Positions 45,477 to 48,318 of a stretch of 64,000 nucleotides of DNA are shown in pieces. The stretch spans positions 1 through 64,000 of the forward strand of contig WGLU01000005.1 in the NCBI GenBank assembly GCA_016125375.1. The letters are read 5' to 3'. This DNA comes from Pseudomonadota bacterium (GTDB taxonomy: Bacteria; Pseudomonadota; Alphaproteobacteria; UBA1280; RI-95). A program made the translations under genes and the position numbers. The stretch's first letter is position 1. Every line of letters starts with the position of its first letter. The notes beneath the pieces are model-generated. The model was not told the origin of the DNA. It did no database searches and saw only the letters and a list, made by a program, of their open reading frames with translations.

Positions 45477-45548
45477 TGCGGTGCTCCTTGTTTGGGTTAA
45501 GGCCATGGCATTGTACGCCATGGCCTTTCCCAACTCAACGAAAAGGCT

Positions 45549-46151
45549 TTACCTCCGTGCGGGGTGCGGGCCGTAGAGGTTGAAGACATGACCTTTGATG
45601 CCATACAGCGGGGTCATGTAGGGCGGGAGTGTGCGCATCAGGATGCGGGTGTACATGTGCACATAACGCTCGCCCTGGTCGGTGGTGACGCGGATGACGG
45701 CAAAATAGGGCTTTTGCGGCCAACGGGCGTTGTAAACAACGACCAGCTCCACATCGTCAAAGCCCAGTTCCTTCAGGGCCGCGTAGGTTGCCACGGACAC
45801 ATCGTCACTGTCGACAGGAGTCTGGGCGCCGATGTACGCTTCCGGCGTCATCCATACGTCAGGGTCCTCGTCGTAGTTGATGCGTGCCTTGGCAATCACA
45901 TCCAGCATGCGCAGCTGCACAGCTAGCAAAGCCATATCGTCGGTCTTGCCTTTTGTGAAAGTACGCAGTTCGGACATCATATGCTGCCACGCCGGATCAT
46001 CCGGGTTGTGGCGGCCCATGGAGTCGTCCCATTTACGCATGTGCTCGGGCGTATAGCTGTACCGCGGCACCAGCGGGTCGGAATGAACAAGGGTTGCCAT
46101 CAGGCAAAGCGCTGCTGCCAGCAGCGTGGTCAGGAGGTTGCGGATTATCAT
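45549..46151 (-). CDS. Secreted transglutaminase-like (BTLCP/LapG-like) protein without catalytic Cys
   Basis: Signal peptide; MRKWDDSMGR...WMTPEAYIGAQTPVDSDDVSVATYAALKELGFDDVELVVVY; paralogous to 46291-46971. Confidence 0.6.
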   Translation of the reverse strand: MIIRNLLTTLLAAALCLMATLVHSDPLVPRYSYTPEHMRKWDDSMGRHNPDDPAWQHMMSELRTFTKGKTDDMALLAVQLRMLDVIAKARINYDEDPDVWMTPEAYIGAQTPVDSDDVSVATYAALKELGFDDVELVVVYNARWPQKPYFAVIRVTTDQGERYVHMYTRILMRTLPPYMTPLYGIKGHVFNLYGPHPARR

Positions 46152-46256
46152 GGTAAGTCACACTGGGTAAGGTGAGCCGTAGAAAAAGGGAGGAGTTAGC
46201 GTGCTTATTTAGGGGCATAGCACCGGGTATGTCAACGGCCGGGGGTAAAAAAGCAC

Positions 46257-46284
46257 AAAGGCCACGGTAAATACCGTGGCCTTT
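46257..46284. terminator. Terminator hairpin
   Basis: aaaggccacggta-aa-taccgtggcctttt. Confidence 0.85.
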
Positions 46285-46290
46285 TGCACT

Positions 46291-46971
46291 TTACTCGTTT
46301 GTCTGTGGGGGGCGCCTGACGATGCGGATATTTTCCGTCGTGAGGACAAGACGCGGCTGGTAGTTGGCAGGCAGCTCCAGCAGGAGGACCTTTTGCCCCC
46401 GTTCCAGATAGCTGTACCCGGCCGAGGTACGCACCCGCGTGACGATAAAGCCTGTCTTACCGGTGGCGGTTGTACGCCAGCCGCTCATCAGGGCGACATC
46501 GTCAAATCCCATTTCTTTCAGGCCAAAGTAGGCGGCAATGGCAAAGTCCACATCGCGGATCGGGCCGCGGGTCGTGGCAAACTCTGCCGGCGTCAGCCAT
46601 CCTTTCGGGGCCGGATATTCAGGCCATACGTAACGCGGGCTTTCCATGGCATGCAGGCGCAATTGCAGGGCCAGCACACGTTCATGATCTCGCATCGATT
46701 GGCTGCGTGTTGCGACTTCGCGCAGCTGCAAACGCCACGACAAGGCAGCAGCCCCGGCGGGGTCGTAGCGGTGCAGCACGTCATCCCATTGCTGGATGCG
46801 GCTGGTCGGTATGGGACCCGTCATTTGCAGGGTTTGGGCCTGCGCTGGTGTGAGCAAAGCCCACACGGCAAAGAACAAAAGCACAGGCAGGCTTTTCAGC
46901 CCGCGCCAAAGCGTATCGGCCATGGCGGCATCCTTGCTTGGAGTGAGGTAGGAAAAGGAAAGGGCAATCAA
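46291..46971 (-). CDS. Secreted transglutaminase-like (BTLCP/LapG-like) protein without catalytic Cys; start may be at 46923
   Basis: IQQWDDVLHRYDP...GWLTPAEFATTRGPIRDVDFAIAAYFGLKEMGFDDVALM; Cys absent from GDCED position. Confidence 0.65.
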   Translation of the reverse strand: MIALSFSYLTPSKDAAMADTLWRGLKSLPVLLFFAVWALLTPAQAQTLQMTGPIPTSRIQQWDDVLHRYDPAGAAALSWRLQLREVATRSQSMRDHERVLALQLRLHAMESPRYVWPEYPAPKGWLTPAEFATTRGPIRDVDFAIAAYFGLKEMGFDDVALMSGWRTTATGKTGFIVTRVRTSAGYSYLERGQKVLLLELPANYQPRLVLTTENIRIVRRPPQTNE

Positions 46972-47130: not shown

Positions 47131-48318
47131 ATGTCCACAGCCGAAAACATTGTCATTGTTGGTGCAGCCCGCACGCCTATGGGCGGCTTTCAGGGTGAGC
47201 TTGCTGCTAAACAAGCCTACGAGCTGGGCGCGCTGGCTATTGGTGAGGCGCTGAAACGCGCAGGCGTGGACGGCGCTCAGGTGGCGGATGTTTACATGGG
47301 CTGCGTGCTGCCCGCAGGGCAGGGTCAGGCACCGGCGCGTCAGGCTGCGCTCGGCGCTGGCTTACCCAACAGCATCCCCTGCACAACCGTGAACAAAATG
47401 TGCGGCAGCGGCATGAAGGCCACCATGCTGGCTTACGACCAGCTCAAGGCTGGCAACGGCGATGTGCTGGTCGCCGGCGGGATGGAAAGTATGACCAATG
47501 CGCCGTATCTGCTGCCCAAAGCGCGCGGCGGCTACCGTATGGGTCACGGCCAGGTCATTGACCACATGTTCATGGACGGGCTGGAAGATGCCTACGACCG
47601 TGGCACGCTGATGGGTGTGTTTGCCGAACAATGCGCCCAGCATTACCAGTTTACCCGCGAGGCGCAGGACGCCTTTGCGCTGGCCTCCATCACCCGCGCG
47701 CAGAAGGCTATTGCAGATGGTACCTTTGCGGCGGAAATCGCCCCGGTGGAAGTCACCGACCGCAAGGGCACGGTAACGGTTGAGCATGACGAGCAACCCC
47801 GCACCGCGCGGCCAGATAAAATCCCGACCCTTAAACCTGCCTTCGCCAAAGACGGTACCGTTACCGCCGCCAACGCCAGCTCCATCTCCGACGGGGCAGC
47901 GGCGCTGGTACTGATGCGCGAGAGCGATGCCATTAAAGCAGGCCGCAAGCCGCTGGCGCGCATTGTCGGCCACGCCACCCACGCGCACGAGCCGGGCTGG
48001 TTTACCACCGCCCCCGTTGGCGCTATGCAGAAACTGGCCAAAAAAGTGGGCTGGAACCTCAAGGATGTTGACTTGTTCGAGATTAACGAGGCCTTTGCCG
48101 TGGTTACCATGGCCGCTATGAAAGAGCTGGATCTGCCCCACGACAAGGTGAACGTCCACGGCGGTGCCTGTGCGCTGGGTCACCCCATTGGCGCGTCCGG
48201 TGCGCGCATCATCGTTACCCTGATGAACGCGCTGGAAAAATACGACCTCAAACGCGGTGTGGCATCGCTGTGCATCGGCGGCGGCGAAGCGACTGCCGTG
48301 GCCATTGAGCGTATCTAA
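47131..48318 (+). CDS. Acetyl-CoA C-acetyltransferase (thiolase)
   Basis: VGAARTPMGGFQGELA; NKMCGSGMKA; NVHGGACALGHPIGASGARI; CIGGGEATA. Confidence 0.95.
   Translation: MSTAENIVIVGAARTPMGGFQGELAAKQAYELGALAIGEALKRAGVDGAQVADVYMGCVLPAGQGQAPARQAALGAGLPNSIPCTTVNKMCGSGMKATMLAYDQLKAGNGDVLVAGGMESMTNAPYLLPKARGGYRMGHGQVIDHMFMDGLEDAYDRGTLMGVFAEQCAQHYQFTREAQDAFALASITRAQKAIADGTFAAEIAPVEVTDRKGTVTVEHDEQPRTARPDKIPTLKPAFAKDGTVTAANASSISDGAAALVLMRESDAIKAGRKPLARIVGHATHAHEPGWFTTAPVGAMQKLAKKVGWNLKDVDLFEINEAFAVVTMAAMKELDLPHDKVNVHGGACALGHPIGASGARIIVTLMNALEKYDLKRGVASLCIGGGEATAVAIERI

Follow-up and report, generated by a model that had tools for sequence, protein, structure and literature searches.

Two Neighbouring Genes for Putatively Exported Paralogues

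The window, a stretch of 64,000 nucleotides that was analysed as a whole, carries two neighbouring genes, P0001 and P0002, whose features are collected in Table 1. Both open reading frames (ORFs) were found on the minus strand, at the place that an earlier note on this DNA had given. That note had read P0002 from a TTG at 46971, which gives a protein of 226 aa; we favour the ATG as the most likely start, judging from the AAGGA just 5' of it and from the compact, clean signal peptide, ending in AQA, with which the shorter protein begins. By inspection, the N-termini of both proteins are basic-hydrophobic with plausible cleavage sites, and both form an N-terminal helix in the AlphaFold (AF2) models, and P0001 and P0002 are putatively exported. 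The two proteins are 29-30% identical (E about 1e-17), and the GC content at the three codon positions (0.62/0.40/0.74 for P0001 and 0.64/0.49/0.70 for P0002) is like that of ordinary genes of the window.

Table 1. Features at the P0001/P0002 locus (positions in the window; P0002 residues in the numbering from TTG 46971).
Feature	Position	Strand	Description	Basis
P0001	45549..46151	-	200 aa; putative signal peptide and predicted BTLCP-fold domain without catalytic triad	ORF, profile-profile comparison, AF2
P0002	46291..46923	-	210 aa from the probable ATG start; putative signal peptide and predicted BTLCP-fold domain without catalytic triad	ORF, hhalign, AF2
P0001 V113-D-S-D-D117	45801-45815	-	GDCED site; Cys replaced by Ser115, D114 kept, E replaced by D116	alignments, survey
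P0001 F150	45702-45704	-	catalytic His position, within YFAVIRV	alignments, survey
P0002 I138-R-D-V-D142	46546-46560	-	GDCED site; Cys replaced by Asp (D140), calcium ligands lost	alignments
P0002 F175	46447-46449	-	catalytic His position, within GFIVTRV	alignments
Terminator-like hairpin	46257..46284	-	12-pair stem, listed by the terminator scan; 3' of P0002, between P0002 and P0001	
GC-rich inverted repeat with short T run	45501..45530	.	downstream of P0001; possible terminator (weak)	read in the sequence, absent from the terminator scan

The description of the two proteins as paired holds in the sense of a tandem duplication and fails in the sense of a shared operon: none is evident, and because a terminator-like hairpin follows P0002 each gene is probably transcribed as a unit of its own. 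A long plus-strand ORF opposite P0002 (46276-48318) corresponds to a thiolase gene that is extended in frame on its upstream side; this gene likely starts near 47131 and therefore would not overlap P0002. The neighbours identified by profile are a MaoC dehydratase, a ceramidase-like protein and an adenylate/guanylate cyclase, and the thiolase and an acyl-CoA dehydrogenase were named from their sequences, not by profile. Among the neighbour genes examined there was no adhesin, type I secretion system (T1SS) or LapD/DvhD-like gene, so that the locus does not show the suggested co-occurrence with genes for RTX adhesins or LapD-like proteins; such systems lie elsewhere in the same genome.

Relation to LapG

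Against the family models the two proteins score low. Pfam PF06035 gives 13.2 bits for P0001 and no match for P0002, both below the gathering cut-off of 27 bits, and the NCBIfam LapG model NF045674 gives the two proteins 12.8 and 13.2 bits (cut-off 320). Profile-profile comparison (hhalign) between the two proteins by themselves and 11 canonical BTLCPs reached a probability of 97.7% (E 1.9e-12, 150 columns); taken singly, P0001 matched these 11 proteins at 95.7% (E 9.6e-9) and P0002 matched canonical BTLCPs at 95.3% (E 2.3e-8). An HMM of BTLCPs from the same class recovered the two proteins at E 1.1e-6 and 1.6e-5. When the PDB was searched by sequence, a profile of the pair with two relatives found LapG (4u65 at 3.5e-12 and 4fgo at 1e-11), and a profile of the pair only found LapG 4u65 at just E 0.14. 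These sequence comparisons confirm P0001 and P0002 as remote homologues of the BTLCP/Peptidase_C93 (LapG) proteins, well above chance.

The AlphaFold models have a mean pLDDT of 88.9 for P0001 and 85.2 for P0002; their alignments included canonical BTLCPs, with sequences supplied by a scan of viral contigs with such proteins, and the models are to some degree pulled toward the LapG fold. In Foldseek, LapG chains take ranks 1-6 for both models and LapG 4fgo is the best PDB match of each, with a superposition on LapG that is globally loose (TM about 0.38-0.58). As modelled, both proteins have the transglutaminase-like fold of LapG, and the profile and structure check that the earlier note had proposed points to LapG by both routes. 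An unrelated fold is rejected on the profile-profile result for the pair together with the LapG chains that top the Foldseek ranking.

The pair shares with LapG, a calcium-dependent periplasmic cysteine protease (4fgo, 4u65; NF045674) and its best match in both structure and sequence, a putative export signal, the transglutaminase-like fold as modelled and the W-x-TP-x-E scaffold motif, and conserved scaffold positions (W100, P103, D117, L126 and G130) are retained despite the loss of the triad. It differs from LapG in that all triad residues are lost, in P0002 the calcium ligands too, and in that it has no T1SS, adhesin or receptor gene as a neighbour. P0001 and P0002 belong to the BTLCP superfamily by descent and, with the defining triad absent, not to the LapG protease family in function.

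The Active Site

In canonical BTLCPs the catalytic motifs follow in the order GDCED, H-A-V/I and L-D-N/S. The motifs that had been quoted for P0001 (VDSDD and F150) and P0002 (IRDVD and F175) are exact. The accompanying statement that GDCED holds both the Cys and the Asp of the triad is right for the Cys; the flanking D and E are calcium ligands, as D316 and E318 on either side of the Cys are in DvhG (PMC13090378). The Asp of the triad comes further downstream, within LDN/LDS. Nothing recognisable as this Asp motif is present in P0001 or P0002. At the predicted calcium-ligand positions P0001 has D114 and D116, the latter in place of E, and P0002 has R and V. The register of P0002 at the nucleophile is uncertain by up to 2 residues, and P0002 is without any Cys regardless of the register chosen.

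P0002 has no cysteine and P0001 has one, confined to its signal peptide, so the mature proteins are Cys-free and cysteine-protease chemistry is therefore excluded. A Cys-His-Asp triad supplied from elsewhere in the protein, which the earlier note had named as one finding that would overturn its reading, was looked for and is ruled out in the same way, with no Cys in either mature protein to provide the nucleophile. In relatives, mutants at the Cys, at the His or at the D and E flanking the Cys have lost activity: DvhG C317A and D316A/E318A are inactive (PMC13090378), HvyA C192S/A and H226Q/A are non-functional (PMC4241560), and LapG C135A gives no cleavage (PMC3032545). From the loss of the triad we predict that neither P0001 nor P0002 would cleave an adhesin at its N-terminal retention module. 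The core of the earlier proposal, secreted LapG/BTLCP-like paralogues that lack the catalytic residues, is supported by the profile comparison, the structure models and the Cys-free mature proteins.

Orthologues and Loss of the Nucleophile in the BTLCP Family

No orthologue of P0001 or P0002 was found in 60 relatives, which include all 5 order-mates, or in 385 genomes of the class; only remote BTLCPs were recovered, and among the genomes searched the family of the source genome is represented by that one genome. The sole match in a scan of GTDB contigs was one canonical Sulfurimonas LapG adjoining a giant repeat protein. Scans of viral contigs with an alignment of the pair and two paralogues from its genome, or with the intact LapG of that genome (L002) alone, gave no match. 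Relatives of BTLCPs are encoded on sixty contigs of the viral catalogue (IMG/VR, L182-L241), and almost all of them read GDCED.

A survey of 136 distinct BTLCPs was assembled by fetching a subset of the listed matches from searches over the class, the widest covering 385 genomes; since some of the profiles used to collect the set contained the Cys-less proteins, its proportions are approximate. The Cys-His-Asp triad is intact in 117 of the 136, and the Cys is replaced in 13. These 13 comprise four proteins of one genus (GDSED or GGSRD, with His and Asp retained), two proteins like them from another family (GDSED, with His changed to Arg), and single proteins or pairs: L010 and L171 (both in genome G164), L023 (G383), L001 (GDDED, from the same genome as the pair), L051 (GDRED), P0001 and P0002. 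All three triad residues are lost in four of the 136 (L010, L023, P0001 and P0002), and across the 10 genomes of its family L010 is not conserved. G164 carries two different Cys-less BTLCPs, L010 and L171 (GDSED; one of them also without His and Asp), plus a canonical one. In L051 (601-1131, genome G012) GDRED stands for GDCED, with His and Asp kept.

When P0001 and P0002 were included in the tree they came out as each other's sisters. Their branches are very long, at 2.5 and 3.9 changes per column, and because of this the tree gives no placement for them. Without them, L001 groups with the four-genome Cys-to-Ser set (support 83/78, not starred), and the starred branches require four or more changes of the Cys; in an AU test a single origin of all Cys-less proteins was not rejected (p 0.10). 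Since the GDSED/GGSRD proteins with which L001 clusters are encoded in secretion operons in another family, loss of the Cys appears to be recurrent in the BTLCP/LapG family, a single origin being formally unrejected. When 399 genomes of the phylum were searched for the pattern GD[S/D/A/E/Y]ED[FY]A, with serine covered by TCN codons only, L001 was the one BTLCP found.

Lap-Type Loci in the Same Genome and in Another Genus

The genome that encodes the pair also has one intact, canonical LapG, L002 (GDCED, His and Asp). It lies between HlyD and an HD-GYP protein in a Dvh-like operon (L040:7419-14440, G000:C7), a run that also includes an ABC transporter bearing a C39-like domain and an OmpA-domain protein. 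The genome has in addition a Cys-less LapG (L001:1459-2238, G000:C9) that reads GDDED, keeps His and Asp and lies directly upstream of a PAS/HD-GYP protein (receptor L039:6983-9085). A 1429-aa protein without a Pfam match and a TPR protein adjoin L001.

In the other genus (L043, L044, L045 and L046) a Cys-less BTLCP with GDSED or GGSRD sits in an ABC-HlyD-BTLCP-dCache/PAS/HD-GYP operon in four cases, where the domains were identified by profile in a single genome (L044) and assigned in the others from position and size. A canonical LapG lies by a second dCache/PAS/HD-GYP receptor gene a few kilobases from the Cys-less operon. These operons resemble the DvhG/DvhD arrangement of Desulfovibrio (PMC13090378), and the genome of the pair likewise has LapG-like proteins beside HD-GYP receptors; DvhG is active and calcium-bound (PMC13090378), whereas P0001 and P0002 are unlinked to receptors and non-catalytic. 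Lap-type machinery through which a dead LapG could work is thus present in the genome of the pair, but the pair is unlinked to it.

The Cys-less LapG-like proteins L001, L013, L016, L020 and L033 lack the nucleophile as the pair does. Unlike the pair, they keep His and Asp and, except for L016 (GGSRD), both calcium ligands; they adjoin HD-GYP receptors, and T1SS genes accompany four of the five, whereas the pair adjoins neither. They are also far less diverged, with E values of 1e-41 to 1e-49 for the operon proteins against 1e-6 and 1e-5 for the pair. HvyA, a BTLCP that controls the Caulobacter capsule (PMC4241560), resembles the pair as a soluble exported BTLCP-domain protein that need not be in a Lap operon, and differs in requiring C192 and H226 for its function (PMC4241560), neither of which the pair has.

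Discussion

Taken together, we consider it probable that P0001 and P0002 are tandem, exported and catalytically dead members of the LapG/BTLCP group that have been kept as non-catalytic periplasmic binding proteins. They would share an ancestor that was itself a BTLCP, would have lost the Cys-His-Asp triad, and may then have been retained as binders that use the former substrate or receptor cleft. P0001 may still have a calcium site, and P0002 would have none. We infer that they act by binding and not by cutting. Candidates for the partner are a Lap-type adhesin, a receptor and some other protein of the envelope, and the locus points to none of them. Proteins of this superfamily fold that have lost catalysis and now serve for scaffolding or binding are well known in eukaryotes, where menin, Rad4/XPC and EPB42 are inactive transglutaminase/papain-fold proteins (PMC10318531); these are mostly eukaryotic and functionally unrelated to the pair, and the likeness is an analogy only. 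In the open-access literature searched, which gives partial coverage, we found no description of BTLCP/LapG pseudoenzymes.

A more specific form of this explanation, whose likelihood is contained in that of the general one and does not add to it, makes the two proteins decoys or regulators in a Lap/Dvh adhesin pathway. They would occupy the adhesin cleavage region or a periplasmic receptor domain and so tune the active LapG encoded elsewhere in their genome. Family resemblance and the Lap systems elsewhere in the genome, namely L002 and L001 beside their HD-GYP proteins, make such a role possible, as do the four GDSED/GGSRD relatives in secretion and receptor operons; however, the genes in the window are unlinked to Lap loci and far more diverged than those relatives, and P0002 is without the calcium ligands that LapG needs to be active. 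We regard this specific role as rather unlikely.

Less likely still, the pair could be functionless paralogues in decay, early pseudogenes whose frames are open by chance. The very long branches and the absence of an orthologue across the order fit such a course, and the dead proteins could be drifting. Decay accords poorly, however, with two intact ORFs that have signal-peptide-like N-termini, a Shine-Dalgarno sequence before P0002 and GC values at the three codon positions typical of coding DNA, or with scaffold residues common to both copies that survive at only 29% identity. An enzyme with another catalytic set, for example with S115 of P0001 as a Ser nucleophile and further residues from elsewhere, is very improbable: the Ser does stand exactly at the Cys position and the superfamily has non-canonical triads, such as the Cys-His-Ser of vasohibin (PMC4866520), but the His position is Phe in both proteins, the Asp motif is absent, the nucleophile position of P0002 is Asp, and C192S kills HvyA (PMC4241560).

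If P0001 and P0002 are indeed dead proteins kept for binding, we may tentatively place them in a wider picture, which we hold to be speculative. Loss of the nucleophile would have made a recurrent class of exported LapG/BTLCP pseudoproteases, some associated with secretion systems and HD-GYP receptors and others, like the pair, fully dead and independent, which might act by binding and not by cutting to control the retention of adhesins or other processes in the envelope, e.g., by shielding the adhesin cleavage site or by competing for the c-di-GMP receptor. LapG is the biofilm-releasing protease, and proteases of its type decide whether bacteria stay attached to a surface or leave it. The survey of Cys-less BTLCPs points to operons in which this can be tested, and if the non-cutting copies act as decoys or adaptors, they would constitute a regulatory layer that is missing from current models of Lap and c-di-GMP control.
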